Shown here in pieces: positions 1-26,543 of a DNA stretch of 41,653 nucleotides. The stretch's first letter is position 1, and the number at the start of each line of letters is the position of its first letter. The notes beneath the pieces are model-generated. The model saw only the letters and a list, made by a program, of their open reading frames with translations, was not told the origin of the DNA and made no database searches. Source of the stretch: Alphaproteobacteria bacterium (GTDB lineage: Bacteria > Pseudomonadota > Alphaproteobacteria > CACIAM-22H2). The translations under genes were made by a program, and so were the position numbers. The stretch spans positions 1 to 41,653 of the forward strand of contig JAEUKZ010000002.1 of the NCBI GenBank assembly GCA_016793045.1. Reading direction: 5' to 3'.

Positions 1-252
1 CAGCTTCTCGACAGCGCCGACGGCCGTATCATCACCATCACGGCGACGCCGGCGGGAACCGCGACGCGCACCCGCGGCGGCCAGCAGACGCAGGTCACGA
101 TGTGGAACATCAGCGCCGTCAGCGGCTTCAGTGACATCGTCATCGGCTATACGCCCCGCGGCGAGTGGGCGGCGATGCATTTCCGCTCGCGCGGCTCGCG
201 CATCGACTACGCCGAACCCGGCGCGACCTCCGCGTCGATGCTTACGCGCTGA
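1..252 (+). CDS. C-terminal part of an unidentified protein (cut by window edge)
   Basis: An open frame runs from the first base to a TGA at 250-252 and gives the last 83 residues of a protein whose start lies outside the window. I do not recognise the family. The segment has alternating hydrophobic and polar stretches (for example ITITATPAG, VTMWNISAVSGF, DIVIGYTPRG) suggesting beta-structure, and ends in MLTR. No catalytic motif or membrane segment is visible. It is codirectional with the AlkB-like gene that starts 26 bases later. Its frame overlaps the long upstream extension of that gene's reading frame, which argues for the shorter AlkB-like start. That this frame is coding is an inference from its lack of stops and its tight spacing to the next gene. 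Confidence 0.45.
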   Translation, partial: QLLDSADGRIITITATPAGTATRTRGGQQTQVTMWNISAVSGFSDIVIGYTPRGEWAAMHFRSRGSRIDYAEPGATSASMLTR

Positions 253-278
253 CCCCGGCGGCGCGGACGCCAACCGCG

Positions 279-1367
279 ATGACTGCCCACCCTGCCGAGA
301 GCGCTGCGACGCCACCAGCTCCGTCCCGGGGGCTCGTCGCACTCGAGATCGCGCTGCGCTGGGGCAGCGTGATCTCGCTGCCTGCGCTGGCGATCGGCTT
401 CCTGACCCTCCCCTGGCCGCTGGCTGAACGATCGTTCGTCTTCGCGGCGGTATTCGTCCTGTCCGCGCTTCACGACGCGATCGGAATGCGCGCAAGGCCC
501 CTGCCGCTGCCGGCGCTGGATCGCGCCGCACGCGCTGCCGACGCCGCCGTGTGGGGCGCCGTGCCGCTGATGGGGGTGGCGGTTGCGGCCGGCGCGTGGA
601 TGGCACCTGCGCTCGGCAGCGTCGAACTGGCGGCGGCAATGCTGATCTTCGGCGTTGCCAGCGGAACGACGGCGATCAGCGCGTCGCACGAACTGATCCA
701 CCGCCGCACGCGGTGGGAGCGCATGGCCGGGACCGCCCTGGCGATACTGGCGTGTTATCCGCATTTTCCCGTCGTCCACCTGCTGGTCCACCACCCGCTG
801 GTCGGCACCGACCGCGATCCGGGCACGGCGAAGCGCAACGAAACGCTGCCCGCCTTCCTGCTGCGCGCGGCACCGCTCTCCTGGCACGGCGCATGGCAGG
901 CGGAACGCCGCCAGCTCGCCCGCCGCGGGCTCGGGGCGTGGAGCCTGCGCAATCGCGTGCTGCGCAATACGGCGGCGCTTGTCGCACTGATCGCCGCAGC
1001 CGGCCTGGCCTGGGGGCCGTCCGCCTCGCTCTTCATCGTCGGCCAGGGCGCGGCGGGCATGCTGCTCGCGCTCATCGTCGACTACACCCAGCACTACGGG
1101 CTCGTGCGCGCGGAGATCGCGCCGGGGCGGCTCGAGCCGGTGCAGGCCGCGCATGCATGGACCTCGAACCACTACTCGAACCGCCTGACCTTCAACCTCG
1201 GCCTGCACGCGGCACACCATCTCGAGCCGGCGCGGCCGGGGATCGCCCTCGACGACCCGCCCGGTTCGCCGCGCACGCCGCTCGGCTATCCGGGCCTGGT
1301 GCTGCTGGCGCTGGTGCCGCCGCTGTGGTTCCGGGTCATGAACCGGCGCGGCACCGCAGCGCGTTGA
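279..1367 (+). CDS. AlkB-type membrane di-iron hydroxylase (fatty acid desaturase superfamily)
   Basis: This 362-residue membrane protein belongs to the alkane 1-monooxygenase / fatty acid desaturase superfamily, which uses a histidine-bound di-iron centre to hydroxylate alkyl chains in the membrane. The histidine boxes are in order: HELIH at residues 137-141, HLLVHH at 167-172, the AlkB-type DYTQHYGL box, and HAAHH at 310-314. Hydrophobic segments lie before the first box, between the second and third, and near the C-terminus (GLVLLALVPPLWF). I chose the ATG at 279 because an upstream in-frame start would overlap the preceding gene; no clear ribosome site supports either. It converges on the oxygenase at 1371 with three bases between stops. 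It is a divergent relative of the AlkB homologue at 16416-17540. A role in oxidising the acyl chain of the neighbouring synthase product is inferred from context only. Confidence 0.8.
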   Translation: MTAHPAESAATPPAPSRGLVALEIALRWGSVISLPALAIGFLTLPWPLAERSFVFAAVFVLSALHDAIGMRARPLPLPALDRAARAADAAVWGAVPLMGVAVAAGAWMAPALGSVELAAAMLIFGVASGTTAISASHELIHRRTRWERMAGTALAILACYPHFPVVHLLVHHPLVGTDRDPGTAKRNETLPAFLLRAAPLSWHGAWQAERRQLARRGLGAWSLRNRVLRNTAALVALIAAAGLAWGPSASLFIVGQGAAGMLLALIVDYTQHYGLVRAEIAPGRLEPVQAAHAWTSNHYSNRLTFNLGLHAAHHLEPARPGIALDDPPGSPRTPLGYPGLVLLALVPPLWFRVMNRRGTAAR

Positions 1368-1370: not shown

Positions 1371-2000
1371 TCACGAGCGGTTGAACATGCGCCAGGCCCG
1401 ATAGGCGAGCTTCTGCATCAGGCCGGCGCGCGGCAGATGCTCCTTCTCGATGAAATCGATCAGCTCGGGCGTGAACTGCGGGTTGAGAATCAACGGCCCG
1501 CGCCGGAACGGATTGCGGAAATCCAGCAGCAGGATGGTGCGCGCGCGGTCCCCGTGGTTCCACGCCTCGTGCTCGAAGGAATCGTCGAAGACCAGGCACT
1601 TGCCCGGGGTCCAGGTCCGCGTTTCGTTGCCGACACGCAGCCCGCACCCCTCAGGCACGTCGAGCGCGAGGTGGCAGCGCAGCACCAGCCCCGAATAGCC
1701 CTCGTAGCCGCAATGCGGCTTGATATGGCCGCCGGGCGCGATGCGGCTGAAGCCCGCCATCATCATCTTCGGGACCTTGCGCACCAGCTTCGCGGTCTCC
1801 GGGCAGAGCGCGCAGCCGCGCTTCTGGCGCTGGGCAAAGGCGTAGAGTCCGAAGGTGTTCCAGCCCTTCTCGCCATAGATCGAGTGCTCCGGCCAAGCGA
1901 TGAACTCGCCCTCCTGCAGCGCCTGCATCTCGCGCCGGATCGTCTGCCAGTTCTGCTCGAGCAGCCTGACGAAGGGGAATTGTTGCGGGTCGTAGAACAT
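1371..2000 (-). CDS. Aspartyl/asparaginyl beta-hydroxylase-family dioxygenase
   Basis: A 209-residue soluble protein of the Asp_Arg_Hydrox family: Fe(II)/2-oxoglutarate oxygenases that include LpxO and bacterial enzymes hydroxylating amino-acid or acyl substrates. The core is visible as GGHIKPHCG (H96 likely an iron ligand), then LVLRCHL, then FDDSFEHEAWN (H144 the second ligand) followed by R154 and a hydrophobic strand, as expected for a 2-oxoglutarate clamp. The start codon overlaps the stop of the giant synthase gene as TGATG (1998-2002), so the two are almost certainly one transcript and translationally coupled. This makes it a prime candidate for tailoring the synthase product, for example hydroxylating the acyl chain or the glycine-derived end. 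The substrate is unknown. A longer in-frame extension exists upstream but lies inside the synthase gene and is rejected. Confidence 0.85.
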   Translation of the reverse strand: MFYDPQQFPFVRLLEQNWQTIRREMQALQEGEFIAWPEHSIYGEKGWNTFGLYAFAQRQKRGCALCPETAKLVRKVPKMMMAGFSRIAPGGHIKPHCGYEGYSGLVLRCHLALDVPEGCGLRVGNETRTWTPGKCLVFDDSFEHEAWNHGDRARTILLLDFRNPFRRGPLILNPQFTPELIDFIEKEHLPRAGLMQKLAYRAWRMFNRS

Positions 2001-2002
2001 CA
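1998..2002 (-). promoter_or_regulatory. TGATG stop/start overlap coupling synthase and oxygenase
   Basis: Read on the minus strand these five bases are TGATG: the TGA ends the hybrid synthase and the ATG sharing its final A starts the beta-hydroxylase-family gene. Such overlaps usually mean translational re-initiation and matched expression. It also fixes the start of the downstream gene. Confidence 0.85.
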
Positions 2003-5000
2003 GACCTCGGCCATCCGTCCGAAACTCCGGCGGAACAATGCGAGCTCCGCGGCAGCCGGACGATAGAGATCGAAGTGAATCGGCACCGGCCCGAAGCCGA
2101 GTCCGGCGAGCGCCTGGTAATGCGCGCGGCAGCTGGCAAGGTCGGTGAGGCCGGTCGTCGGCGGGAGCCTCGGGCCGGACGCCGAGAGCAGCCCGGACAG
2201 AACGCAGCCGGTGATCCGGTCGTGATGCAGATTGCCAAGTGCGGCGAGCAGCAGGGGATGCTCGAGAAAGCGCAGCGCGGCGGGCGGCACGGCGAGGCGC
2301 CGCACGATCGCGCCGGGCGCGCGCACCAGCCCGCCGGCCGAGAACATGATGTCGCCGCTCCGGCGCGCCCGCTCCACCGCCTTCGCCATGGAAAAGCACG
2401 GCGGGAACGAGTCGTCGACGATCACCGTCCCAGGCATCAGCCGCTCGACATCGAGCACGTCGGGTGCGTTGGTGGCGCCGACGATGAAGCTCGCCTCGTA
2501 AGCGGCATCGGGCGCCGCGCCGGCGCTCGTTGCCATGGCGACCTTGATCGGCCCGGCGAAGCCGCGCCGCTTGACCTCGCTCGCCAGCGCACGGACCTTC
2601 GCCGATTGCGCGGGCAGGTCGCAGAGGATGAGCGACGCGGGATGCGGCAGGCGGTCGAGCATCAGATCGAGCACGGCGCCGCCGATCGAGCCGAGGCCGA
2701 GCACCGCGACGCATTCCTGTGAAAGATCGCGTCCCGCCTCCCGGCTCGCTTCGGCGATGTTCATCACCATCGCCGCCGCGGTCGTGGCATGTCCGGTCGT
2801 GATCGCCGGCAGGGCATCGGTTGCCGCGATCGCACGGCCATAGTCCGTCGCCGCCGGGATAAGCCCCGTGAGCGCGACGGCGCGGGCTCCCATGCGCGCG
2901 CTCAGTTCGGCCGCGCCCACCACCTGCCGCACGGTCGCCGCCTGGTCGACGAACAGGTCGGATGCGAACATGGGCAGCGTGACCACCGCTATGCGCCCGA
3001 GCGGCATCTCGTTGACGGCATACCAGAACGGGCGGTCGCCGAACCACTCGCGGGCAATGCGCTGGCGCGGCATGCGCGTCTGCAGGGCGAGGAAATCCGG
3101 AAGGTATGCGATCGCCGCGGCGTCGATGGGGCCGACCTGACCCGCGGCGCGCAGCAGGGCGAGCGGCCGCCATTCCGCTGTCGCCGGCGGTTGCGCCGCC
3201 CCGGCCGGCGTCCCCACGGCGTCATCGCCGGCGAACTCGGGCGGAAGGTCTGCGGCCACCTTGCGCAGCACCTCGACGCGCTCGGCGAGCGATGCCACCG
3301 TCGGGTGGCGCAGCAGGTCGGCGACGCCGAGGTCGACACCCAGCGCTTCGCCGGCGCGCGCGATGTAGCGCACCGCCAGCAGCGACGTGCCGCCGATGTC
3401 AAAGAAGCTGGCGCTGCGCGATATGTGGTCGCTGCCGAGCAGCTTGCCGAGGATCGCCGCCAGCTGCTCTTCGACCGGACCGTGATACGCGGCCCCGTTG
3501 CCGTTGGCGCCCTTCACGGCTGCGGTGGCGGCCGGCGCACCGCTCAGCGTGCGCAGCCTGGTGCGGTCGATCTTGCCGTTGGGCGTGAGCGGCAGGCGAT
3601 CGAGAACGGAAATGCGCGCCGGTACCATGTAGCCAGGCAGGCGCGTCTGCAGGAATTCGCGCAGCTCGTCCTCGGAGGGACCGGACTCCTCGGCCACGAC
3701 GAAGGCGTGCAGGGTCACCGCCGCGAGATCGGTCCCCTGCCGGACCACCGCCGACGCACGGACCGACGGATGCTCGGCGAGCGCGGCTTCGATGTCACCG
3801 AGTTCGATGCGGAAGCCGCGCAGCTTGATCTGGCTGTCGCGCCGGCCGACATAGACCAGGTTGCCGTCGCCCCGCCGCCGCACGATGTCGCCGGTCTTGA
3901 ACAGCCGGGCATCCGGATCGCGGGGGTCGGCAACGAATCGCGCGGCCGTCAGGTCCGGCCGGCCCCGATAGCCGCGCGCCACGCCGGCACCGCCGATGAA
4001 CAGCTCGCCCGCGACGCCGTCAGGCACGGCGCGCATCATTGCGTCGAGCACGTGGCACGTCGTGTTCGCGATCGGATGGCCGATCGGCACCGGACCGCTG
4101 CCCGGCGCGACGCGCATCGCAGTCGACCACACCGTCGTCTCGGTCGGACCGTAGAGGTTCCAGACCGCTCCGGCGCGCGCGAGCAGCGCATCGGCGAGGT
4201 CGCGCGGCAGCCGCTCGCCGCCGCACAGCGCCGTGAACCCGGCGCCGCCCGTCCAACCGCCGTCGATGGCCATGCGCCAAGTGGCCGGCGTCGCCTGCAT
4301 CTTGGTGATGTCGCCGCGCGCCAGACGCGCGGCGAGAAGCTTTCCGTCGCGCGTCATCGCTTCGTCGGCGATCACGCTGCGGGCCCCGACCGTGAGCGGC
4401 AGCAGCAGTTCGAGCACCGCGATGTCGAACGACAGCGTGGTGACCGCGAGAATTGCACTGCGCTCGTTCATCCCCGGTTCCGCGGCCATCGCGCGCAGGA
4501 AATTGGCGAGCGCACGATGCGTGATCTCGACCCCCACCGGCCGCCCGGTCGAGCCCGAGGTATGGATCACGTAGGCCAGGTCATCGAGGCCGCGCGTGCC
4601 TGGAGATGGCGGGGCACTGCGCCACCAGGACGGATCGTCGAGCGCGAGCACCAGATCGTCGCCAACTGGGATCTGCGTGCGCGTCGCCGCATGCACGAGA
4701 ACCGCCGCGGGCATCGTGCCCTCGATCATGTGCGCGAGTCGCTCGGCCGGATAGGTCGGATCCAGCGGCACGTATGCCGCGCCGGCCTTGACGGTCGCGA
4801 GCATCGCCAGCGGCAGATCGACCCCGCGGCCGATCGCGATCCCAACCAGGGAACCGCGGCCGATGCCGCGGGCGGACAGCGCGCCGGCGAGCCTCCCGAC
4901 GCGCGCGCCGAGCGCGCGATAGCTCAGGCGCTCGCCGCCGCACTCGACGGCGATCGCATCGGGACGCGCGGCGACCTGCGCCTCGAACATCGTCACCAGA

Positions 5001-8000
5001 TCGGCCCCATCGTAGCGCTGGACCGCATGCGGCATCGCGCCATTCGTTGCCCGGGCCGCGAGCGCGATCGCGTCGAGCGGCTGGTCGGGACGCGCGGCGA
5101 TCGCAGCCAGGATCGCCTCGTACTGGCCGATCATCCGGGCGATCGTCTCGGGGTCGAACAGGTCGGCCCGATAGTCGACGACGCCGTAGACCTTGCCGTC
5201 GAACTCCTCGACCACCAGCGTAAGGTCGAACTGGCTGCGGTCGCGTTCGAGCGGCACCGAGTCGAGCTGGTAGTCGCTGAGCCGCAGGCTGGGGCCGCCA
5301 GTGTTGAGCAACGTAACGGCAAAGCCGCGACTGTCGACGCGCGCAGGCCGCTCCATCGCAAAGCCGACCTGGAACAGCGGCGAACGGTCTTCGTAGCGGT
5401 CTGCGTGCAGGTTCTGCACCAGCAGCGCGAACGGATAGTCCTGGTTCTCCAGCGCGGCGGTCACGCTGCGGTTCGCCGCGTGAAGAAGGTCGCGGAAGGT
5501 CGCCTCCGCCGCGACGCGCGTGCGCACGACCACGGGATTGACGAAGTATCCGACCGTGCGCTCGAACTCGGCGCGCGTGCGCACGGCGACCGGCACGCCG
5601 ACCAGCAGGTCGTCCTGGCCGGTGAGCCGGTAGAGCAGCGCCTTGTAGGCCGCAAGCAGCACGGTGAAGAACGTCGCATTCTCGGCCTGCGCGATGCGCT
5701 TGAGTGCCGTGACTAGCTCCGGTCCGAGCGCGAAATTGCAGGCGCCTCCCTTGGCGGTCTGGGACGGCGCACGCGTGCGATCGACCGGCAGATCGAGCGG
5801 CGGCGGCAACGCACTCAGCTGTTCGCGCCAAAAGGCGAACTGCCGCTCGCCTTCGCGGCCGGACACGAAGTCGCGCTGCCAGCGCACGTAGTCGGCATAG
5901 CCGTGCGCGACGGCAGGCAGGGCGACCGTGCCGCCACTGCGCGACGCCATGTAGATCGCGAACATCTCCTCGAGCGCGATCGACAACGACCAGGCATCGG
6001 CGATGATGTGGTGCAGGCACAGCAACAACACGTCGCGATCATCCGGCCGGTGGAACAGGTCGAGTCGGATGAGCGGCTCGGCGGCAAGGTCGAACGGCGC
6101 GTTGGCGCGCGCAGCAAGCAGCCGGCGAAACTCGTCGTCCGCCAAGCCGGCGGCGTCGTGTTCGGCGATGTGGAACTCCTCGACCGGCCTGATGATCTGG
6201 ATCGGCACTCCGTTCTCGAGCGGGAAGCTCGCGCGAAGCCCGCCATGGCGCGCGACAACCTGCGAGAAGGCTCGAGCCAGGCTCCCGACGTCCAGCCGCG
6301 GCCGTATGCCGACACAGTAGACGAGGTGGTAACTCGCACTCGACGGATCGAGGGCGTGCAGGAAGGCGAGCGCCTCCTGGCCGTAGGACAGGGCGTGTGC
6401 CCCGGAAGCCGGCTCCGCGACAACAAGCGCCGACGCCTCGCCGCCGTCGGCGGCGCCGAGGCGCTCGAGGAACGCGTCAGTCAGGGTCTCGACGCTCGGC
6501 CGCTGCAGGAACTTGCCGATCGGAATGCTGAGTCCGAGTTGCGTCTCGATGCGGTTCTTAAGCTCGAACGACGTCAGCGAGTCGAGACCGAATTCGCTGA
6601 GCGGCCGCGCCGGCTCGACCATCGCAGGTGCAGTCTTGAGCACGCTCGCGACCTGGCGGCGCAGGTAGTCGGCGAGCATTGCGCCGCGCGCTTCGGGCGG
6701 CGCGGCAAGCAGCTCGGCACGCACGGTGCCGTCGCCCTCTTCGTGGCGGGCGGCGACGCCGAGATTGCGGCAGCGCGGCGAGTTGCCGAGTGCGGGATTG
6801 ACGCGGGCAAGCCGCTGCCAGTCGACGCCGGCATACGCCACCGTCGCCACATCGCGCTGCAGAAGCCGGCCGAGCGCACCGAGCGCCTCGTCGACCGGGA
6901 CCGAGGCGATTCCGGCCGCGTTGAGATAGCGCGCGACGTCGTCACGCTTCACCAGGTGTCCGGCGCCCGCGAGCGCTCCCCAGCTCACCGAGAGGGCCGG
7001 CAGCCCGCGCTGTCGGCGGTATTCGGCGAGGGCATCAAGGAAACGGTTGGCCGCGACGTAGTTCGCCTGACCGTTCGACCCGACCACGGATGCGATCGAC
7101 GAATAGAGAACGAAATGATCGAGCGGCAGCGTCCGCGTCGCCGCGTGAAGATGCCAGGCTCCAAGCAGCTTTGGCGCCATCACGCGCCGCATGCGCGCAT
7201 CGTCCAGCCTGGCGATGAAATCGTCGTCGAGCACCATGGCGGCATGGAAGACGCCGGCCAGCGGCACCCCGGCGGCAGCGATCGTCGCCAACAGCGCGTC
7301 GACATCGCTCCGGCGCGTGACGTCGGCTGCAACCTGTGTGACGGCGGCGCCGCGCGCGCGCAGCTCTTCGAGCGCCCCTGGCGGCGCGACGCCCGACCGG
7401 CTCGCGAGCACGAGGTGGCGTGCGCCGTTCCGCACCAGCCAGTCCGCGGTCGCAAGTCCGAAGCCGCTCAGCCCGCCCGTGACCAGATAGGCGGCATCGG
7501 CACGGAAGGCGATCGGTCGATCGACACGGCGCACGATGCGGGCCGGTTCGCCGCCGAACGTCACCACCACCTTGCCGATGTGCTTCGCCGTGGCCATCCG
7601 GCGGAACGCATCGGCGACGCGCGAAAGAGCAAAGCGCTCGACGGGTAGCGGCTTGAGCTCGCCCGCCGCGAGCTGTTCAGCGATGCGCGCCATGCCGTCG
7701 ACCAGGATCTGCGGCCGCTGCGCGGCCGCACGCGCGAGGTCGACGACCATGAAGGAAACATTCTGGCGCAGCGCGTTGAGGCCGATCGGCGTGTCGGCAT
7801 AGATGTCGCGCTTGCCGATCTCGACGAAGCGCCCGAACGGGGCGAGCGCCGACAGGCCCTTCTCGATGAACGCGCCAGGCAGCGCGTTGAGCACAACGTC
7901 GACGCCCCGCCCGCCCGTCGCCGCCATCACTTCGTCGGCGAAGTCGAGCGAGCGCGAATCCATGACATGGCGCAGGCCGAGCTTGCGCAGGTAGTCACGT

Positions 8001-11000
8001 TTCTCCGCGCTGCCCGCGGTCGCCAACACCTCCGCACCGGCGCGCCGGGCGATCTGTATCGCCGCGAGGCCCACGCCGCCTGTCCCCGCGTGGACGAGCA
8101 CCCGTTCCCCCGCGCCGACCCGCGCCAGCGTCGTCAGCGCGTGGTGTGCGGTGAGGAACGCGGTCGGCAGCGCCGCCGCCTCGGCATCGGACAGGCCCGC
8201 CGGCTTTGCGAAGGCCAGCGCCGCAGGGACGACCACATGCGACGCGAAACTGCCGCGTGCGATGGCGATGACCGCATTGCCGATCGCGTGCGTGGTGACG
8301 CCGTCGCCGACCGCCACCACGGTGCCGGCGCATTCGAACCCCAGATTCCGCCACGCCGCATCGTCTTCCGCTTCGGCGGGAAGCAGGCCGGTCGCCGCCA
8401 TGACGTCGCGGAAATTGAGGCCGACGGCACTCACCCTGACGAGCACTTCGCCGCCGGACGGGCGCGGCAGCGCCATCTCCTGCAGCGTCAGGTTGTCGAT
8501 CACCCCCGGCGACGACATGGTGAGGCGAAACGGCGGCGCGCCGTCAGCGGCCGCGACCATCGACTGGGGGGCGATGTCGTCGAGCCCGACGCGCTCGATG
8601 CGACCGACGACGCGTTGGTCGTGGCGATAGGCGATCTCGGGCTCGTCGTCGGCGGCCGCGATCTCGGCGAACAGCGGCTCGGCCGCCGGCGCGGCCGCGT
8701 CGAGGTCGATCGTCGTGCAGCGGAGCTGCGGATACTCGTTGGCAATGGTGCGCGCGAGTCCGGCGACGGGCGACGCCGCGAGGCTGAGGTCCGGTGTCGT
8801 GCCGTTCGAGCCGTGCTCGACGAGTTGCGCACCGGCGGTGGCGATCCACAGCCGTGGCGCGGCGCCCGCCGCGCCGAACGCCTGGACGAGCTTGAGAACG
8901 TGCAGGCTGCCCTCGTTCTGCGCGGCCCAGAGGAATTCGCCGTCGAGGCGCTCCGGCGCCGCGGCATCGAGGCTCCACAGATGCGCGACGCCCGTCACGT
9001 CGGAGGCTGCGAGGCCGGCTGCAGCGAGCACGCGGGCGAGGTCATCGGGCGCTCCCGGCCGAATCGTAAAGCGGCCCGCCCCGCCTTGGCGGAAGCGGGC
9101 GCCCGCCCGGAGGACGAGCGCAGTGCCACCCGCCGCGGTGATGCGCGCGGCAAGACCTTCGCCGACCCTTCCGCGATCCGCGAACACCAGCCAGTGCCCT
9201 GCCGGCGATTCGCCGGTCTGTGCGGGCAGGTCCCGGCGGACCCAGCGCGTGCGATAGTGGCTGGCGCTCGCCGCATCGGCGCCATCGGTCGCGGCGCGCC
9301 GCAGACGGCGGCAGGCAAAGCCCCGAATCGCAGCGACGCAGGCGCCGCCCTCGTCGAACACGTGCAGGTCCGCGTCCAGTCTGGCATCGTCGAGCGCGAC
9401 CCGGCGGCCACGGCTGAACAGGCGTCCGTTTGCGCGGCCGAACAGGCGCACCTGCGCGATCTTGACAGGCATCGCCACGTCGCCGCCGTCCTGATCGCCG
9501 AAGCCGCGGAAGCCGCGGACGACCTGGAAGCAGCTGTCGAGCAGCGCCGGATGGAGCGCAAATCCTGCGACCGCTCCGGCAATGGCCTCGGGCACGACGA
9601 TGCTGCCAAGTACCTCCTTCTCCGAGTGCCACGGCAGATCGACGCCGCGGAAAGCAGGCCCGAAGTCGTGGCCTTCATGGCGCAGCTGCTCATAGAACCG
9701 CCGCCCGCCGACACGCTCGGGCGGGACCGCGGCCGCCATCCAGGCATCGGCAGCAGGCGGCGTCGCATTGCAGATCCGCACGCGCGCGCTCGCGCGCAAC
9801 GTCCATTCCGCCTCGACGTCGCGCTGCCGGCTGAAGATCGCGATGGTTCCGCGTGTCGGCTCGTGCACGGTCTGCAGCAGCACCGAGCGCCCATCGCCCA
9901 GGAACAGCGCCGCGTGAAACGTGATGTCCTCGGCCTCGCAGGCGACGTCGCCGAACAGCGCGCGCGCCGCCGCGAGCACGATTTCGACATAGCCCGCGGC
10001 GGGGAACACGACCGCGCCGTCGATGCGGTGATCCTTGAGGAAGGGCTGAAACTGCTGGCCGATTTCGACCTGCCAGATCGACCGCGCCGCATGAAGCCGC
10101 GTGCCGAGCAGCGGATGGACGGGGGCATCGAAACGCGCGGCGCGGGCCTCCTCGGAGTCCGCCCAGAAGGCGCGCTGCTCCCACGGATATCGCGGCAGCC
10201 GCAGGTCGGCCCGCCCGCCGGGCGCGACCGCGTGCCAGTCGACCGCCACGCCGCGCGTCCACAATCCGCCGAGCGACTTGAGCATCGTCTCGCCGTCGGG
10301 CTCGTGCCGGCGCAGCGAACCGGCCGCGAAGCCGGCGCAGCCGCGCTCCTCGAGGCAGGCCATCGTCGGTGCGGCGAGTGCCGGATGCGGGCCAAGCTCG
10401 AGGAAACCGCGATGGCCGGCCGCGATCAGGTGGTCGATCGCGTCGCGGAACCGTACCGGCTCGCGCACGTTGCGCCACCAGTAGGTGGCATCGAGCGCAC
10501 CCTCCTCGACCGGCCGCCCGGTGACCGTCGAGATCATCGGCACCGCCGGCGCGGCCGACCGCAGACCGGCGAGGCTCGCGAGCATCTCGCCCTCGAACGG
10601 ATCCATCTGCCGGCTGTGAAAGGCGTAGTCGACCTTCAAGAGCTGCCGGAGCACGCCCGGCGCGCGCTCGTCGACCAGCGCGAGCAGCGCATCGAGCGCC
10701 GCACGGTCGCCCGCAACGGTGATCGATTGCGGGCCGTTGACCGCGGCGACTTCGAGCCGGTCCTCGAAGCCGCGCAGCAGTGCCGGCGCCTGCTCCGCCG
10801 ACACACCGATCGCCGCCATGGCGCCCTGGCCCCGCGTACGCTCCTGCAGCCGCGAGCGGTGCCACACGACGCGGGCGGCGTCGTCGAGCGAAAGCGCGCC
10901 GCAAACATGCGCCGCGGCGATCTCGCCGATGCTGTGTCCGACCACCGCGGCGGGCACGATGCCCCATGCGCGCCAGCGCGCTGCAAGTGCCACCTGCAGC

Positions 11001-12847
11001 GCGAAGGTCGCCGGCTGTGCCACTGCCGTCTCGTTCATGCGTGAACGATGCTCGTCGGCCGACATCTCGTCGAGAACCGACCAGCCCGCGATCGCGCGGA
11101 AGATCGCGTCGCAGCGTTCCATCGCAGCGCGGAACACCTTGTCGCCCGCCAGCAGGCCACGCCCCATCGCCCACCATTGCGCGCCCTGGCCGGTGAAGAC
11201 GAACGCCAGGCCGTTCTGGTCCTCGCGCCGCCCCGCGACGACTCGCGCCGGGCGCTCGCCCTTGGCGACCGCGGCGAGATCGGCGGCCAGATCGGCCCGC
11301 GTCGCCGCGACGATGGCGACACGGTGATCGAGATGCGTGCGCCGTGCACCGAGGGTCGCGGCAAGATCGGCCGGCGTGACCGCCGGATCGTCGAGCACCG
11401 ACGCGATCCCCGCGGCGACGCGGCCGAGCGCGGCCTCGCTCGCCGCGGTCAAGGGGATCAGCACCGGCACGTCCGTGCCGGCCTGCGCGGCGCGCGTCGG
11501 CGGCGCGGCGCCGACGATCGCACAGGCATTGGTTCCGCCGAAGCCGAACGAGTTGACCGCCACGATCCGCTCGCCGGCGGGAAACGGCGTAAGCCGCCGC
11601 GGCACGTCGATGTTCAGCTGGCCGAACGGGATATTGGGATTGGGCGTCTCGAAATGCAGATTGGGCGGGATGGCGCCGTTGCGCACGCACAGCACCGCCT
11701 TGATCAGGCCAGCGATGCCGGAGGCCGATTCGAGATGCCCGATATTGGTCTTGCAGGAGCCGATCAGGCAAGGCGCTGCGCGTCCGACGCCGAAAACGCT
11801 GCCGATCGCCGCGGCCTCGATCGGGTCGCCCACCGCGGTGCCGGTGCCGTGCGCCTCGACATAGCCCACGGCCGAAGGCGCCACGTCGGCGCGCGCGCAG
11901 GCCGCGCGCAGCATCTCCTCCTGCGCTTCGCGGCTGGGAACGGTGATCGTGCTGGTGCGGCCGTCCTGGTTGACGACGGTGGCCCGGATCACCGCGTGGA
12001 TCGGATCGCCGTCCGCCAGCGCCCGCGCTAGCGGCTTGAGCGCAACGATACCGGCCCCCTCGCCGCGCACGTAGCCGTTGGCGCGCGCGTCGAAGGCTTT
12101 GCAGCGGCCATCGGGCGACAGCATCGCGGCGCGGCTGAAGCTGATCGTCACGTCAGGCGTGAGGATCGCGTTCACCCCGCCAGCGAGGGCCATTTCGCAG
12201 CGCCCCGTCCACAGCGCCGCGCATGCCGCATCGACCGCCACGAGCGCGGACGAACACGCCGTATCGACCGCGAAGCTCGGGCCGCGCAGGTCGAAGCGAT
12301 GGGAGATCCGGTTGGCGGCGATGCTCAGCGCGCTGCCGGTCGCGGTATGCACGTCGATCGTCGAGCGGCCGAATTTCTGGATGCCGTGATAGTCGGAGTG
12401 CGAGATGCCGACGAATACGCCGGTATTGGAGCGGGCGACGCGCTCGAGCGGCAGGCCGGCATCCTCCAGCGCCTCCCACGCACAGCGAAGCAGCAGCCGG
12501 TGCTGCGGATCCATCAGTGCCGCTTCGCGCGGCGAGATGCCGAAAAATGCGGCGTCGAACTTGTCGATGCCGTCGATGAACCCGCCGCGTCGTGAAACCG
12601 TCTTGCCTGGGATCGAAGGGTCGGCGTCGTAGTGCGCGTCGAGGTTCCAGCGGTCCGCCGGTACGGCGACGATCGCGTCGCGCGCTTCGCTCAGCAGCGC
12701 CCAGTATTCGTCAGGGCCGTCGGCGCCGCCCGGGAAGACGCACCCGATTCCGATGACCGCTATCGGGTCGCGAAGCTGCGGCCCGCCGCTCGATTCGTCA
12801 TGGACCGCCGGACGCTTGCTGGTACGAGGTTCGATCGCAGCCTCCAC
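2000..12847 (-). CDS. Hybrid PKS-NRPS megasynthase with C-terminal AAR-like reductase domain
   Basis: A 3615-residue assembly line. KS about 28-445 (C198 in DTACSS, H333, H371). AT about 545-840 (GHSIGE with S639; YAFHS at 741). DH about 911-1180 (H940; D1104 in LLDSCFQ). A structural region leads to ER about 1437-1765 (AGTGGVG). KR about 1781-1990 (GGLSGFG, S1917, Y1930, LDD motif of B-type). ACP S2090. C domain about 2150-2590 (HHIIADAW at 2279). A domain about 2615-3100 (YGPTETT, KTGD, LTPNGKID). PCP S3155. Residues 3225-3615 carry a Rossmann motif (GLGSIGG, 3384) and resemble cyanobacterial acyl-ACP reductase. No thioesterase and no methyltransferase domain is seen. The start is GTG at 12847; an in-frame stop lies 18 codons upstream with no better start between. 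Predicted job: build a reduced acyl chain, join it to an amino acid (pocket suggests glycine) and release it reductively. Product and iteration count are unknown. Confidence 0.92.
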   Translation of the reverse strand: MEAAIEPRTSKRPAVHDESSGGPQLRDPIAVIGIGCVFPGGADGPDEYWALLSEARDAIVAVPADRWNLDAHYDADPSIPGKTVSRRGGFIDGIDKFDAAFFGISPREAALMDPQHRLLLRCAWEALEDAGLPLERVARSNTGVFVGISHSDYHGIQKFGRSTIDVHTATGSALSIAANRISHRFDLRGPSFAVDTACSSALVAVDAACAALWTGRCEMALAGGVNAILTPDVTISFSRAAMLSPDGRCKAFDARANGYVRGEGAGIVALKPLARALADGDPIHAVIRATVVNQDGRTSTITVPSREAQEEMLRAACARADVAPSAVGYVEAHGTGTAVGDPIEAAAIGSVFGVGRAAPCLIGSCKTNIGHLESASGIAGLIKAVLCVRNGAIPPNLHFETPNPNIPFGQLNIDVPRRLTPFPAGERIVAVNSFGFGGTNACAIVGAAPPTRAAQAGTDVPVLIPLTAASEAALGRVAAGIASVLDDPAVTPADLAATLGARRTHLDHRVAIVAATRADLAADLAAVAKGERPARVVAGRREDQNGLAFVFTGQGAQWWAMGRGLLAGDKVFRAAMERCDAIFRAIAGWSVLDEMSADEHRSRMNETAVAQPATFALQVALAARWRAWGIVPAAVVGHSIGEIAAAHVCGALSLDDAARVVWHRSRLQERTRGQGAMAAIGVSAEQAPALLRGFEDRLEVAAVNGPQSITVAGDRAALDALLALVDERAPGVLRQLLKVDYAFHSRQMDPFEGEMLASLAGLRSAAPAVPMISTVTGRPVEEGALDATYWWRNVREPVRFRDAIDHLIAAGHRGFLELGPHPALAAPTMACLEERGCAGFAAGSLRRHEPDGETMLKSLGGLWTRGVAVDWHAVAPGGRADLRLPRYPWEQRAFWADSEEARAARFDAPVHPLLGTRLHAARSIWQVEIGQQFQPFLKDHRIDGAVVFPAAGYVEIVLAAARALFGDVACEAEDITFHAALFLGDGRSVLLQTVHEPTRGTIAIFSRQRDVEAEWTLRASARVRICNATPPAADAWMAAAVPPERVGGRRFYEQLRHEGHDFGPAFRGVDLPWHSEKEVLGSIVVPEAIAGAVAGFALHPALLDSCFQVVRGFRGFGDQDGGDVAMPVKIAQVRLFGRANGRLFSRGRRVALDDARLDADLHVFDEGGACVAAIRGFACRRLRRAATDGADAASASHYRTRWVRRDLPAQTGESPAGHWLVFADRGRVGEGLAARITAAGGTALVLRAGARFRQGGAGRFTIRPGAPDDLARVLAAAGLAASDVTGVAHLWSLDAAAPERLDGEFLWAAQNEGSLHVLKLVQAFGAAGAAPRLWIATAGAQLVEHGSNGTTPDLSLAASPVAGLARTIANEYPQLRCTTIDLDAAAPAAEPLFAEIAAADDEPEIAYRHDQRVVGRIERVGLDDIAPQSMVAAADGAPPFRLTMSSPGVIDNLTLQEMALPRPSGGEVLVRVSAVGLNFRDVMAATGLLPAEAEDDAAWRNLGFECAGTVVAVGDGVTTHAIGNAVIAIARGSFASHVVVPAALAFAKPAGLSDAEAAALPTAFLTAHHALTTLARVGAGERVLVHAGTGGVGLAAIQIARRAGAEVLATAGSAEKRDYLRKLGLRHVMDSRSLDFADEVMAATGGRGVDVVLNALPGAFIEKGLSALAPFGRFVEIGKRDIYADTPIGLNALRQNVSFMVVDLARAAAQRPQILVDGMARIAEQLAAGELKPLPVERFALSRVADAFRRMATAKHIGKVVVTFGGEPARIVRRVDRPIAFRADAAYLVTGGLSGFGLATADWLVRNGARHLVLASRSGVAPPGALEELRARGAAVTQVAADVTRRSDVDALLATIAAAGVPLAGVFHAAMVLDDDFIARLDDARMRRVMAPKLLGAWHLHAATRTLPLDHFVLYSSIASVVGSNGQANYVAANRFLDALAEYRRQRGLPALSVSWGALAGAGHLVKRDDVARYLNAAGIASVPVDEALGALGRLLQRDVATVAYAGVDWQRLARVNPALGNSPRCRNLGVAARHEEGDGTVRAELLAAPPEARGAMLADYLRRQVASVLKTAPAMVEPARPLSEFGLDSLTSFELKNRIETQLGLSIPIGKFLQRPSVETLTDAFLERLGAADGGEASALVVAEPASGAHALSYGQEALAFLHALDPSSASYHLVYCVGIRPRLDVGSLARAFSQVVARHGGLRASFPLENGVPIQIIRPVEEFHIAEHDAAGLADDEFRRLLAARANAPFDLAAEPLIRLDLFHRPDDRDVLLLCLHHIIADAWSLSIALEEMFAIYMASRSGGTVALPAVAHGYADYVRWQRDFVSGREGERQFAFWREQLSALPPPLDLPVDRTRAPSQTAKGGACNFALGPELVTALKRIAQAENATFFTVLLAAYKALLYRLTGQDDLLVGVPVAVRTRAEFERTVGYFVNPVVVRTRVAAEATFRDLLHAANRSVTAALENQDYPFALLVQNLHADRYEDRSPLFQVGFAMERPARVDSRGFAVTLLNTGGPSLRLSDYQLDSVPLERDRSQFDLTLVVEEFDGKVYGVVDYRADLFDPETIARMIGQYEAILAAIAARPDQPLDAIALAARATNGAMPHAVQRYDGADLVTMFEAQVAARPDAIAVECGGERLSYRALGARVGRLAGALSARGIGRGSLVGIAIGRGVDLPLAMLATVKAGAAYVPLDPTYPAERLAHMIEGTMPAAVLVHAATRTQIPVGDDLVLALDDPSWWRSAPPSPGTRGLDDLAYVIHTSGSTGRPVGVEITHRALANFLRAMAAEPGMNERSAILAVTTLSFDIAVLELLLPLTVGARSVIADEAMTRDGKLLAARLARGDITKMQATPATWRMAIDGGWTGGAGFTALCGGERLPRDLADALLARAGAVWNLYGPTETTVWSTAMRVAPGSGPVPIGHPIANTTCHVLDAMMRAVPDGVAGELFIGGAGVARGYRGRPDLTAARFVADPRDPDARLFKTGDIVRRRGDGNLVYVGRRDSQIKLRGFRIELGDIEAALAEHPSVRASAVVRQGTDLAAVTLHAFVVAEESGPSEDELREFLQTRLPGYMVPARISVLDRLPLTPNGKIDRTRLRTLSGAPAATAAVKGANGNGAAYHGPVEEQLAAILGKLLGSDHISRSASFFDIGGTSLLAVRYIARAGEALGVDLGVADLLRHPTVASLAERVEVLRKVAADLPPEFAGDDAVGTPAGAAQPPATAEWRPLALLRAAGQVGPIDAAAIAYLPDFLALQTRMPRQRIAREWFGDRPFWYAVNEMPLGRIAVVTLPMFASDLFVDQAATVRQVVGAAELSARMGARAVALTGLIPAATDYGRAIAATDALPAITTGHATTAAAMVMNIAEASREAGRDLSQECVAVLGLGSIGGAVLDLMLDRLPHPASLILCDLPAQSAKVRALASEVKRRGFAGPIKVAMATSAGAAPDAAYEASFIVGATNAPDVLDVERLMPGTVIVDDSFPPCFSMAKAVERARRSGDIMFSAGGLVRAPGAIVRRLAVPPAALRFLEHPLLLAALGNLHHDRITGCVLSGLLSASGPRLPPTTGLTDLASCRAHYQALAGLGFGPVPIHFDLYRPAAAELALFRRSFGRMAEV

Positions 12848-13024: not shown

Positions 13025-13756
13025 TCAGCAGTCCGCGAGCGACGCGGCGTAGTCGAAGCGCGCGATGTTCATGCCGGCCGGGCCCGCGTCCGCCGCCGGG
13101 CGCCGCGTCCAGGCCAGCGCCGCGACATGACCGGGAGCGGTCGCAAGCGACACCAGATCAAGCCCATCCGGTGCCGCGCCGGGATCGGCCCAATCGCAGA
13201 CCGGACTGCCGCCGGCCCAACCGATTCGCACGGCCTCTCCGGCGACCGCAAGCGCCCGTCCCAGCGCCTTGATGCACGCCTCATGAGCGGTCCACAACCG
13301 CAGGAAGGCGAGATCGCGTTGCCGCGGGTCGAGATGCTCCAGGCCCGCAGCCCCACGCGCGCCGATCACCCGGTCGGCGATCGCAAGCGCCTCGGGCATC
13401 GCGCGCACCCGCTCGACATCGATCCCGACGGCCCGCTCGCGCGCGACCGCGATCAGCGCAAGCCCGCCGGCATGGCTGAGATTGAAGGCGAATCCGCGTC
13501 GGGCGAACGGGCCGGCAAGCTCCGGCTTTCCCCACGGACCAGAAGCAAACTCGATGGCGGCCGGCGCGGCATCCAGATAGTGCCCAAGGACCACCCGCAG
13601 CGCCCCTCGGGCATGCAGAAAGGCGTCGCGGTCCTGGGGACGAACGAAGCGCGCGGCGCGCGCGCGCTCCTCGGCGTTGCAGATCGCGCCATCGTCCGGC
13701 CGCCCAGGCGGCGCGGCCGTCCACACATGCAGCTCATGGACCCCCAGCGCGATCAT
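13025..13756 (-). CDS. Sfp-type 4'-phosphopantetheinyl transferase
   Basis: A 243-residue enzyme that transfers the phosphopantetheine arm from coenzyme A to carrier-domain serines, here presumably S2090 and S3155 of the adjacent synthase. Diagnostic motifs are FNLSHAGG at 91-98, the magnesium-binding GIDVE at 111-115 and WTAHEACIKALG at 155-166. The usual lysine before the conserved glutamate of the last motif (WxxKEA) is histidine here, while the second lysine is kept. Length suits the Sfp/EntD class rather than the short AcpS class. I chose the ATG at 13756, just after the stop of the upstream sterol-desaturase-like gene (16 bases between), because a longer frame would run inside that gene. 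The context, same strand and next to a megasynthase, makes the function convincing. Confidence 0.9.
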   Translation of the reverse strand: MIALGVHELHVWTAAPPGRPDDGAICNAEERARAARFVRPQDRDAFLHARGALRVVLGHYLDAAPAAIEFASGPWGKPELAGPFARRGFAFNLSHAGGLALIAVARERAVGIDVERVRAMPEALAIADRVIGARGAAGLEHLDPRQRDLAFLRLWTAHEACIKALGRALAVAGEAVRIGWAGGSPVCDWADPGAAPDGLDLVSLATAPGHVAALAWTRRPAADAGPAGMNIARFDYAASLADC

Positions 13757-13772
13757 CGGGCCACCGGGCGGA

Positions 13773-14537
13773 TCAGAGCCCGAGGACCATGCGCAACGGC
13801 GGCGTGCGGTCCTGCGGCTCGAGACCGAAACCGAGCCCGCTGCGGTCGACCGAATCGGGCGGCACGTAGGTCCCGAAGAGGCGGTCCCAGAAGCTGAAGA
13901 CCGACCCGAAATTGCGGTCCCGCAGCGCCGGCAGCAGGCTGTGATGCAGCTCATGCAGCCGCGGCGTCACCACCACCGTCTCGATCGCACGCGACAGCGC
14001 CGCAGGCAGCGCGATGTTGCAGTGCATGACGTGATTCCAAAGGATCTGCAGAAGCAGATTGAACTGCGCGACGACTGCCGGCATGTCCATCAGCCAGGCG
14101 AATACGGCCGACGGCACGATCAACAGCGCGGTATGGGCGGCGGTGTCGCGATTGCCCGAGAACCAGTAGAGCTCGGCCACCGAATGGTGGAAGCGGTGGA
14201 TTGCCCACAGGCGCTGCGAGTGCATCGCCCAATGTGCCCAGTAGCGCAGCAGGTCGGTCACCAGAAAGAACAACGGGATCGAGATGATCCAGGGCAGCGT
14301 CGCAAGGCCGAGCGGATCGGGACCGATGCTGTTTGCGAACTCCGTGAACACGGCCAGGAACAGCCCTCCTGAGCCATAGGTCACCGCGAAGCCGATGATG
14401 TCCAGCTGCCTGCCGGACCGCTTGTCGACGCTGCGCAACGGCCGCCAGCGCTCGCCCGCAGCGAACAGCGCGCCGGCGGCAAAGAAGAACGCCAACGGCA
14501 CCGCCATGTCCCAGAGGATCCGCCATCCGTCGATCAA
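13773..14537 (-). CDS. Sterol desaturase / fatty acid hydroxylase superfamily membrane protein
   Basis: A 254-residue integral membrane protein of the fatty acid hydroxylase superfamily, histidine-rich di-iron enzymes acting on C-H bonds of lipids (sterol desaturases, beta-carotene hydroxylase, ceramide hydroxylases). The histidine clusters are HWAMH (102-106), HRFHH (114-118) and HELHH (195-199), embedded between hydrophobic segments at about 10-27, 45-65 and 82-98 and a long one around 135-180. It is the first gene of the minus-strand cluster that continues into the phosphopantetheinyl transferase and the synthase. This suggests it oxidises or desaturates the synthase product or a precursor, by inference. 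The ATG at 14537 faces away from the esterase gene to its right, so a promoter is expected between them. Confidence 0.85.
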   Translation of the reverse strand: MIDGWRILWDMAVPLAFFFAAGALFAAGERWRPLRSVDKRSGRQLDIIGFAVTYGSGGLFLAVFTEFANSIGPDPLGLATLPWIISIPLFFLVTDLLRYWAHWAMHSQRLWAIHRFHHSVAELYWFSGNRDTAAHTALLIVPSAVFAWLMDMPAVVAQFNLLLQILWNHVMHCNIALPAALSRAIETVVVTPRLHELHHSLLPALRDRNFGSVFSFWDRLFGTYVPPDSVDRSGLGFGLEPQDRTPPLRMVLGL

Positions 14538-16415: not shown

Positions 16416-17540
16416 CTAGCGGGCGGTCGCCGGCCGCGGCGCCGCCAAGAGCGCGCGCTCGCCGTCGCTGGCCAGTTCGCGATCCCAGCGCGCCAAACGT
16501 CGGTCCATCTTGCGGAACCACAGCGGCGGCACGAGCGCCATCAGGCCGCTCAACATCAGCCCGCCGGGCAGGCGCGGCGCGGCAGCCTCGACGGGCAAGG
16601 CCCAGTACGGCCGGGCCGACATGTGATGGGAGGCGTGGCGGCCGAGATTGAACATCCCAGCAGCACTCATCGGCGCGGTCGTGTCCCAGGAGTGACGCGC
16701 CTCGATGCGAGTGCCGGCGACACGCACGAGCCCGTAGTGTTCGACGTAGTTGATGATCTCCAGAAAGGCCTTGGCGATCACGGCGGCGGCAAGGAACGCG
16801 AGCATGGCGCGCCAGCCGGCGATCGCGGCAGTGGCGCCGATGATCGCGAGGCTCAGCGCCAGGCCGCGCAGATTGCGGTTGTGCCATGACCACAGCGGCA
16901 GCGCGCGGCGCGCGAGCCGCCGGCGTTCGATCGCCCAGGCGCTGCGGAACCCCTGGAAAGTCGAGCGCAGGATGAAACGGTAGACGTTCTCGCCGCGCCG
17001 CGCCGTCGCCGGATCGTCGCGCGTGCCGACCTTGAGATGGTGGCCATAGACGTGTTCGATCGCGAACGCGGCGTCGAGGATGAACGCGAGCAGGACGCGC
17101 CCGGCGAGCATCGAGGCGCGCGAGCGCGTGCGATGGACCAGCTCGTGCGCCGTGGTGGTGCCGGCGGTCGAAATCGTCACCGCCAACGACACGATCGCGC
17201 CGACGAGGGTTGCCGGCGTCGCCAATGCGCGGCGCGCCTGCGCGACCTCGCCGAGCCGGCCGCCGAGATTCGCCGAGATGCCCCCGACGCCCGCAAAGCA
17301 CAGTACGAAGGCGGCCCAGGCCAGCAGGATCAGCGGCACCTGCGCGAACAGCAGGGCATCGGCCAGCGTGCCGCCGCTGGAGGCGGGCGGCGTCTCGTCG
17401 CGGGGGCCGAGCTCGTCCCAGCCGAGGTAGAGCGCGCCATAGACCGCGGCGCCGAGCCAGCACCACCATCCGCCGGCCAGCAGACCTGCGGACGTCGCCA
17501 GCGGCAGAATGCAGATCGCCGCGAAGCGATAGCGATGCAT
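16416..17540 (-). CDS. AlkB-type alkane 1-monooxygenase family protein
   Basis: A 374-residue membrane hydroxylase with the complete AlkB histidine signature: HELVH at residues 132-136, EHVYGHH at 162-168, NYVEHYG at 264-270 and RHASHH at 301-306. Hydrophobic segments (about 7-39, 62-85, 108-126, 226-262) fit the AlkB topology. Enzymes of this family hydroxylate terminal carbons of alkanes or fatty chains using rubredoxin-delivered electrons; no rubredoxin gene is in the window. The start at 17540 is firmly supported by a strong ribosome site (AAGGAGG, seven bases upstream), so the longer in-frame extension is rejected. The four boxes are closer to classical AlkB than those of the homologue at 279-1367. 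It is transcribed away from the acyltransferase gene. Whether it serves the synthase locus or alkane use is undecided. Confidence 0.87.
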   Translation of the reverse strand: MHRYRFAAICILPLATSAGLLAGGWWCWLGAAVYGALYLGWDELGPRDETPPASSGGTLADALLFAQVPLILLAWAAFVLCFAGVGGISANLGGRLGEVAQARRALATPATLVGAIVSLAVTISTAGTTTAHELVHRTRSRASMLAGRVLLAFILDAAFAIEHVYGHHLKVGTRDDPATARRGENVYRFILRSTFQGFRSAWAIERRRLARRALPLWSWHNRNLRGLALSLAIIGATAAIAGWRAMLAFLAAAVIAKAFLEIINYVEHYGLVRVAGTRIEARHSWDTTAPMSAAGMFNLGRHASHHMSARPYWALPVEAAAPRLPGGLMLSGLMALVPPLWFRKMDRRLARWDRELASDGERALLAAPRPATAR

Positions 17541-17838
17541 GCGCGCGCCTCCTTGTGCGCGAAGTGGCGGCGCAGCCTCTCGCCGGAGCGACGCGCCGCG
17601 CGACCCAATCGAAATCCGATCGGCATGATGGTCGAGTTCCGGCAGGCTTTCCAGCATGGCCTGCCGCGGCCGCTCGTCACGGATTCAGGCGGCCACGGGC
17701 GGCGCACATAGCGTCTTGCCCGGCCGCACCGCTGCCGGCACACTTGCGTCCCGATCGCAACCTTGGTTTTCCGGGAATGTTCGGCATGCAGCGAGGCGCG
17801 TTGCGCGGTCCGCGACGGCAACCGGGACAGTGCCTCGG
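17541..17838. promoter_or_regulatory. Divergent promoter region with inverted repeat TTGCG-N7-CGCAA
   Basis: This 298-base region separates the AlkB gene (minus) from the acyltransferase gene (plus). Next to the AlkB start is a near-ideal Shine-Dalgarno AAGGAGG (17548-17554, minus strand). At 17744-17760 an inverted repeat TTGCG-TCCCGAT-CGCAA forms a symmetric 17-base site, a plausible operator for a dimeric repressor acting on one or both genes. I find no convincing -35/-10 pair. Confidence 0.4.
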
Positions 17839-20707: not shown

Positions 20708-21520
20708 TCACACCCTTTCGACCTTCTCGGCGCGCGAGAAGGCCCAGCGGCGCAGGTCGACGCCGCCGGGGAAGGCCGTCACGAGCTGCCCGGTCAGCAG
20801 GAAGTTCGCTTTGCCCTCGGCGCTCTGGCTCTCGGTGCTTGCGGTCACCGGGACGTTCCAGATGTCCGCGAGATTGCGCAGCAGGGCCGCCCCGGCGGCC
20901 CCGAGCGCCACCCGGCAGGCGTGAAACTCGACGAAGCCGAAATCCGCCATCAGCTGGGCCATCTGGCGAAGCGCCGGCGCCAATGTCGCGACAGTCTTGC
21001 CGTTGAGCACCGTCAGCGTCGCCTCGTGGTCGATGCCCTTCACGAGGTCGAGCGAGCGCTTGCCGAAGGTGAGCGACGCCAGACCTGGGCCGCCGTGGCC
21101 GTGAAAACGCATGAGCAGCAGCTTCGACTTTTCCGCGACCTGCGCCTTGATGTCGGTCATCACCTGGATGACGCCGTTGGTCATCGCACCGGTCTGGATC
21201 GGCCGACCGAATTGCCCCAGTTCCGGCACCACCGCGTCGAGCACGACGGGATCGGTGACATCGACCGCGTCGGCCGCCTGGAGGCCCGCATTGCGGATCA
21301 ACTCGAGCCAGAGCGGCCCGTCGGCGAGGTCGCCGGAACCGGAGGTCTTCATGACCTCGTTGCGGAAGCGCGCAACCGCATCGGACGTGTTCTGCCCGTA
21401 GATGCCGTCCGTCACCAGAATCTTGCCGAAGCGCCGGTTGAGCAGGATCTGCAGCGCGATGATGCGCGGCCCCGACTCGTTGCGCTTGACGATCAGCATC
21501 GCACGGGCCGCATCACGCAC
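20708..21520 (-). CDS. Peptidoglycan-binding plus caspase-like (clan CD, DUF4347-type) protein; candidate T6SS effector
   Basis: A 270-residue protein from the GTG at 21520 (or 263 from the ATG at 21499; neither has a clear ribosome site). Residues about 12-55 match a PG_binding_1 domain (LQILLNRRFG...VTDGIYGQNTSDAVARF). From about 90 to 255 it resembles the caspase-fold DUF4347 family: MRFHGHGGPG puts a histidine-glycine pair at 140-143 after a hydrophobic strand, and VEFHACRVALG puts C202 after the next strand, the His/Cys dyad layout of clan CD peptidases. It then continues GAALLRNLADIWNVPVTAS. No signal peptide is seen, as expected for a T6SS cargo. The gene starts three bases after the tagH stop and is followed by the small OB-fold gene. 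A cell-wall-targeted protease toxin is my inference; it could instead be a structural accessory. No obvious immunity gene adjoins it. Confidence 0.6.
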   Translation of the reverse strand: MRDAARAMLIVKRNESGPRIIALQILLNRRFGKILVTDGIYGQNTSDAVARFRNEVMKTSGSGDLADGPLWLELIRNAGLQAADAVDVTDPVVLDAVVPELGQFGRPIQTGAMTNGVIQVMTDIKAQVAEKSKLLLMRFHGHGGPGLASLTFGKRSLDLVKGIDHEATLTVLNGKTVATLAPALRQMAQLMADFGFVEFHACRVALGAAGAALLRNLADIWNVPVTASTESQSAEGKANFLLTGQLVTAFPGGVDLRRWAFSRAEKVERV

Positions 21521-21523
21521 GCC

Positions 21524-22852: not shown

Positions 22853-23005
22853 TTGTGCCTCGTCTTCCGGTCTGCGCGAACAGCGCCCCGCAGCCGTGCC
22901 GGCCCGCGCAGCGCGTGCCCGCCCGCCGCCCGGCCGGCGCGCCCGGGGCCTTGCCGCGGGGCAGGCGGGATGTGAGACTGCTCCATCCGCGTTGTCGTGG
23001 TGATC
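22853..23005. promoter_or_regulatory. Divergent region between tagH and PAAR gene
   Basis: The FHA gene leaves to the left and the PAAR gene to the right, so this 153-base, extremely GC-rich stretch should contain promoter elements for both. I see no clear -35/-10 boxes and no sigma-54 GG-N10-GC site. Confidence 0.25.
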
Positions 23006-25758: not shown

Positions 25759-25894
25759 GCCGGGCACCCGGTTGTGGCGCGGTCGATCCACGCCCGCGCG
25801 GCACCGCCCCCGCCGTCGCCGACCGCCGCGACACGGGTTCGCGGCGGCACGGCCAGTTCATGATCGCGCCGCCGCAACGCTCGGCGCGGTGGGG

Positions 25895-26380: not shown

Positions 26381-26387
26381 GGTTCAT

Positions 26388-26394
26388 CTCCTCG
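26388..26394 (-). promoter_or_regulatory. Strong ribosome-binding site deciding the GTG start of hcp
   Basis: On the minus strand the bases read CGAGGAG, seven bases before GTG 26380. This strong site fits the very high translation expected for Hcp and decides the GTG over the internal ATG. The rest of the gap back to clpV (26395-26543) shows no terminator and no clear sigma-70 or sigma-54 site. Confidence 0.75.
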
Positions 26395-26543
26395 TTTGTT
26401 GGGACAGTTTCTGCATCGGAGAAAAGCGGCGAATCTGCGCGCGAATCGGCGCCGGCGCACTGCGCCTCGCCCAGACCGTATTCCCTCTACGAACGCGCGA
26501 CACGCCACGCCCATTCCCTGTCGGTCGGTCCACGGCGCCGGCA

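Follow-up and report, generated by a model that had tools for sequence, protein, structure and literature searches.

A carmabin-type terminal domain with a predicted AAR fold closes a polyketide-glycine megasynthase

The window analysed here, a single stretch of 41,653 nucleotides, encodes a large PKS-NRPS megasynthase whose last 393 residues are, by sequence and structural model, a carmabin-type TAD, a known and structurally solved kind of domain with the fold of acyl-ACP reductase (AAR). Membership of this family, together with non-hydrolytic release through a cysteine and NAD(H), is in our judgement very probable, a confidence that excludes the identity of the product. The features that underlie this reading are collected in Table 1.

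Table 1. Positions of the megasynthase, its domains and motifs, neighbouring genes, and sulfotransferase genes at related loci
Feature	Position	Strand	Basis or remark
Megasynthase KS-AT-DH-ER-KR-ACP-C-A-PCP-TAD	2000..12847	-	3615 aa, GTG start
Fully reducing PKS module KS-AT-DH-ER-KR-ACP	6452..12775	-	Pfam, motif check
Condensation domain	5033..6400	-	Pfam
Adenylation domain, code DILQLGLVW(K) = glycine	3563..4996	-	specificity code
PCP domain (S3155), presenting thioester to release domain	3263..3484	-	Pfam, motif check
C-terminal AAR-fold release domain (carmabin-type TAD), residues 3223-3615	2003..3181	-	sequence, profile, model, Foldseek
TTGHATT motif, residues 3350-3356	2780..2800	-	matches AAR TTGNTHT
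GLGSIG dinucleotide-binding loop, residues 3384-3389	2681..2698	-	Asp3410 follows at beta-2 end
DDSFPPC motif, residues 3478-3484	2396..2416	-	includes Cys3484; Pro3483 for usual His
Cys3548 codon (ITGC), AAR Cys294 equivalent	2204..2206	-	alignment of 66, profile-profile
4'-Phosphopantetheinyl transferase	13028..13954	-	true start probably inner ATG near 13756
Fatty acid hydroxylase superfamily protein (OlsE-like)	13776..14537	-	first gene of apparent operon
AlkB-like (alkane 1-monooxygenase family) protein	165..1364	+	
Second AlkB-like protein	16419..17657	-	
Sulfotransferase gene, locus L107	897-2006		
Sulfotransferase gene, locus L108	11905-13014	-	
Sulfotransferase gene, locus L111	1368-2486		
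Sulfotransferase gene, locus L033	4686-5795		

Pfam resolves the protein into KS (residues 27-400), AT (549-867), DH, ER, KR (1785-1960) and ACP domains followed by C (2152-2601), A (2621-3092) and PCP (3127-3191) domains, and a motif check found the catalytic motifs of every domain intact. The A-domain code extracted is DILQLGLVW, which we take, following the established specificity code, to select glycine; the GrsA reference used for the extraction gave back its own correct code. The predicted assembly line thus couples a fatty chain to glycine: the PKS module would build or extend a saturated acyl chain, and the C-A-PCP module would attach glycine to leave an N-acyl-glycyl thioester on S3155.

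Beyond the PCP no Pfam family scores above threshold, with neither a TE (alpha/beta hydrolase) nor an SDR-type R domain detected and the SDR and NAD_binding_4 families unmatched in this region, while NCBIfam returns weak matches to PigE, AAR and SbnB. An earlier note on this DNA had read the region as an AAR-like domain rather than a TE or SDR-type R domain, and the blank in Pfam and the AAR fold of the model bear it out. Each motif quoted there is present (TTGHATT at 3350, GLGSIG at 3384, DDSFPPC at 3478, ITGC leading to Cys3548, and the PCP serine S3155), and the extent given, 2000-3240, is roughly correct, although it reaches about 20 codons too far at the upper end, into the post-PCP linker.

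The resemblance to AAR is above chance: in a search with a profile built from 66 relatives, AAR structures score E = 7e-8 and PigE 1e-15. A phmmer search of solved structures, however, gave E 2e-81 for PDB entries 9E4X and 9E4S, the match spanning residues 46-432 of the 436-residue query, and E 0.1 for AAR. An AlphaFold2 model of the domain built on 54 relatives reached a pLDDT of 93.9 and a pTM of 0.93, and its top Foldseek ranks are held by ten chains titled "TAD from Carmabin Biosynthetic Pathway" (TM 0.90-0.94, 38-40% identity), with AAR at TM 0.63-0.66 and 17-20% identity (6JZU: TM 0.66, E = 2e-16). The structure search therefore recovers the AAR fold that had been anticipated but places the carmabin TAD much closer; the likeness to AAR is real in both sequence and model, yet AAR is the second-nearest family. 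The characters of the TAD family found in the window protein comprise a C-terminal domain with the AAR fold, about 390 residues long and placed behind a PCP, homology over the whole domain, both invariant cysteines, and GxGxxG with the beta-2 Asp.

Three other identities for the domain were considered and rejected. For an SDR R domain, the SDR/NAD_binding_4 families are unmatched and the TM to TAD is 0.94; for a TE, nothing behind the PCP matches an alpha/beta hydrolase; and for a plain dehydrogenase of the shikimate/saccharopine type, the weak Pfam hits seen in a few members are outweighed by the TM of 0.94 to TAD.

Cys3548 (domain C326) and Cys3484 (domain C262) are invariant in 66 of 66 relatives, as are all three glycines of GxGxxG, and H3353 of TTGH is near-invariant. 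Profile-profile alignment sets Cys3548 against AAR position 294, which is the one changed in AAR-C294S (entry 6JZZ), and the earlier assignment of Cys3548 as the equivalent of the AAR catalytic cysteine stands. Asp3410 (domain D188), at the end of the strand that follows the GxGxxG helix, is Asp in 65 of the 66 members; the AAR sequence reads Arg and then Asn or Asp at the equivalent position. By the usual Rossmann-fold rule, an Asp in this place points to NAD(H) rather than NADP(H) as the cofactor, in agreement with the NADH and NAD complexes of the carmabin TAD; the NADPH dependence first suggested is accordingly doubtful. The conservation of the cofactor site indicates that selection on it is strong. 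In the release that we propose, the N-acyl-glycyl chain would move from S3155 to Cys3548 as a putative acyl-enzyme, and non-hydrolytic release would be tied to bound NAD(H), presumably through a hydride step from NADH, to give a product that probably lacks a free carboxylate.

Among the carmabin TAD structures (PDB 9E4S, 9E4U, 9E4X, 9E50 and 9E56; released 2025-02-26) are ones bound to NADH, to NAD and, through a disulfide at Cys2238, to dephospho-CoA, the last being the expected outcome for a thiol meeting a phosphopantetheine arm. The titles of these entries leave "TAD" unexpanded and state no reaction; Cys2238 corresponds to the MGC cysteine if the protein is 2303 residues long and to the PHC cysteine if it is 2366. 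A literature search for AAR-type release or TAD returned the hectoramide B paper alone (PMC10949194), in which the C-terminal post-PCP domain of HcaD is 83.5% identical to that of VatR and is drawn as an amidotransferase, with ammonolytic release proposed and the enzymology unstudied. That proposal derives from the primary-amide ends of hectoramide B, vatiamides E/F, carmabin A and the dragonamides (PMC10949194). One of our relatives, a 1962-residue Moorena protein (L010), shares the layout of HcaD, namely C-A(Val code)-insert-PCP-TAD. The earlier statement that no described megasynthase uses an AAR domain for release is contradicted by the 9E4S group, which is the same domain, and by the ends of VatR and HcaD (PMC10949194).

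Since the products of cyanobacterial relatives suggest an amide, we rank N-acyl-glycinamide first among the possible products, if at a little under an even chance; N-acyl-glycinal or alcohol comes second and is a realistic prospect, and any other product is improbable. The amide draws support from the hectoramide B and vatiamide E/F synthetases, which end in the same domain and yield primary amides (PMC10949194). Aldehyde release as originally envisaged becomes doubtful, given that relatives with known products make C-terminal amides, but the reading may yet hold for the DDSFPPC sub-type described below. Plain ammonolysis can proceed without NAD; given the strong selection on the NAD site, the published ammonolysis idea is incomplete. 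A redox-neutral borrowing of hydride, in which the acyl-Cys would be taken to the aldehyde level, ammonia would add, and the same cofactor would oxidise the carbinolamine to the amide, would account both for the primary amides made by the carmabin group and for the conserved NAD site, and fits the resemblance of the domain to AAR and SbnB (ornithine cyclodeaminase family), whose model is matched by 43 of the 66 members; it was, however, reached by inference, and we regard it as rather unlikely.

The window protein and four Verrucomicrobiota proteins constitute, in sequence and architecture, a distinct TAD sub-type that is new here, having in common a fully reducing PKS joined to glycine and TAD, an orthologous PKS module, and DDSFPPC. 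Domain order is identical to that of the window protein in L024 and L037, the same architecture is spread over several genes in L030, and L033 is truncated by a contig end. Glycine-type A codes occur in all four Verrucomicrobiota loci, and the window PKS domains are nearest to theirs (KS 61%, versus 42% for the next). DDSFPPC is confined to the sub-type, all others having DDSxPHC except two with Tyr, in a scan that admitted H, P or Y alone at DDSxP(H/P/Y)C and that other variants would escape. The His, present in 60 of the 66 members of alignment A2, is replaced by Pro in the window, but it is a majority trait whose essentiality is not established, and its absence does not exclude the window domain from the family. 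The Glu of the EGG motif of cyanobacterial members is likewise missing from the sub-type, as it is from actinomycete members. Because both the His and the Glu are missing, amidation may not carry over to the sub-type.

A quick tree separates the window TAD, which sits on a long branch, from the Verrucomicrobiota TADs, but constraining them to one clade gave a likelihood 4.5 units better than the free search (p-AU 0.61), a result with which common descent of these TADs is compatible and by which it is not proven. The long branch would also suit a degenerate or structural terminal domain with a separate thioesterase releasing the product, as would the type II thioesterase that adjoins one relative (G146); the family-invariant residues are nevertheless all retained, the predicted neighbours scanned in the window contain no thioesterase domain, and we consider such degeneracy very improbable.

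The loss of the His and of the EGG Glu also speaks for AAR-type reduction, in which NADH would turn the Cys3548 thioester into N-acyl-aminoacetaldehyde, possibly continuing to the alcohol (N-acylethanolamine). This is the chemistry of the earlier note with NADH in place of NADPH, and it is quite possible, though we would not bet on it: it is consistent with the AAR fold and Cys294 equivalent, with the conserved NAD site, and with a sulfotransferase gene, suited to an alcohol product, that directly follows the PKS-Gly-TAD genes in 4 of 4 Verrucomicrobiota loci (about 51-88% mutual identity). The sulfotransferase could, however, target a chain hydroxyl; its gene is absent at every other fetched locus, and no homologue was found in the genome of the window; and the known products of TAD pathways (hectoramide B, the vatiamides, carmabin) end in amides, not aldehydes. 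That the DDSFPPC sub-type has switched from amide formation to reduction, releasing N-acyl-aminoacetaldehydes or N-acylethanolamines, is a speculative proposal that we think unlikely to be right. These weightings of the rival readings concern chemistry inside the frame of a TAD with non-hydrolytic release and overlap with our confidence in that frame.

Genes for the phosphopantetheinyl transferase and the fatty acid hydroxylase lie upstream of the megasynthase on the same strand. A whole-genome search of the 5.3-Mb genome found AlkB-like genes at two loci, both flanking the megasynthase cluster, which supports a link to the megasynthase; none was found in three Verrucomicrobiota genomes searched, and AlkB-like genes are therefore not part of the pathway core. 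The neighbouring AlkB-like proteins and fatty acid hydroxylases would probably oxidise the chain. Farther along, positions 23932-41653 hold type VI secretion genes (VgrG-like, Hcp, ClpV-like, TssK, TssL, TssM) with PP2C phosphatase and Ser/Thr kinase genes, and long open reading frames lacking a Pfam match lie in or beside this region (20921-22972 on the plus strand, 29250-30950 on the minus strand).

The TAD family is far broader than one would expect from its cyanobacterial origin. With a single sequence as query, genome_contigs yielded no relatives; an alignment scan found 97, of which 80 were fetched, the conservation counts given above being made on the 66-member alignment A2. The fetched relatives come from at least ten phyla (Cyanobacteriota, Chloroflexota, Actinomycetota, Verrucomicrobiota, Planctomycetota, Bacillota, Myxococcota, Pseudomonadota, Nitrospirota, Bacteroidota and others), and in almost all the TAD forms the C-terminal end of an NRPS or PKS-NRPS, behind the PCP or, in actinomycetes, behind an added C-like domain. 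Within phyla it is sparse: strong matches occurred in 2 of 399 genomes from the phylum of the window (its own included), 1 of 289 Verrucomicrobiota genomes drawn (the seed genome) and 4 of 292 cyanobacterial genomes (seed included), and none in 60 relatives of the window's genome, which gave one marginal fragment (E 7.5e-4). The family has likely spread horizontally.

Several relatives depart from the common layout. Actinomycete members carry an extra C-like domain between PCP and TAD; their clade (L052-L085, for example L004 4360-16137) is made up of large PKS-NRPS genes whose A domains all have one unusual code, DARS[HQ]GL[IV]N. A few TADs are free-standing, in Pantoea, Erwinia, Robbsia, Hahella, Actinoplanes and a Streptomyces plasmid (in the first four genera, loci L003, 11860-13149, L016, L022, L027 and L032), the Pantoea gene lying between a MupA-type luciferase-like monooxygenase gene and NRPS genes. 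In two unicellular cyanobacteria a gene for glutamine-dependent NAD synthase stands right after a C-A(Asp code)-PCP-TAD gene (L116 13050-14816; L117 12682-14355), an adjacency that may be coincidental or may reflect the supply of ammonia or NAD. Two TAD reading frames are interrupted, by an in-frame stop near 10697 in L013 and by a split across several frames in L084, through decay or assembly error.

Ammonolysis has been proposed as the way in which AAR-fold domains terminate assembly lines, although their cofactor site is conserved. With one PKS module, glycine, and natural changes by the second cysteine, the sub-type makes amide versus aldehyde testable with a small substrate, and should its chemistry differ, it would offer a defined release-domain tool. 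A switch to reduction, if true, would give bacteria a means of making N-acylethanolamine-type lipids on an assembly line; Verrucomicrobiota would then sulfate them, and the organism of the window would oxidise them with its AlkB-like proteins.

Among known systems, the nearest named NCBIfam family is the N-terminal domain of PigE from the prodigiosin pathway (PDB 4PPM), which all 66 members match, though over part of its 837 positions and at 52 bits versus 850; the Cys regions align in the profile search, but the PigE domain is fused to an aminotransferase and the window domain to a PCP. A canonical NRPS/PKS R domain, an SDR-type thioester reductase, shares the post-PCP position and a nucleotide cofactor site but differs in fold, whereas the window domain is Cys-based and has no SDR/NAD_binding_4 match. 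AAR (TIGR04058) has in common the overall fold (TM 0.66), the Cys294 equivalent, the TTG..T motif and the Rossmann site; identity is about 18%, and the window domain, at 18 bits against a cut-off of 449.7, falls below the curated family threshold. It also differs from the free-standing AAR, with its Arg-Asn/Asp, in having the beta-2-end Asp, a second invariant cysteine and fusion to a megasynthase. It occupies the same place behind the PCP as the carmabin TAD and the terminal domains of VatR and HcaD and has their fold (TM 0.94), both their cysteines and their NAD(H)-type Rossmann site, at an identity of about 39%. In contrast to those domains, which follow an N-methylating peptide module and carry DDSxPHC and the EGG Glu, the non-cyanobacterial window domain follows a fully reducing PKS and a glycine module and has DDSFPPC and no EGG Glu.
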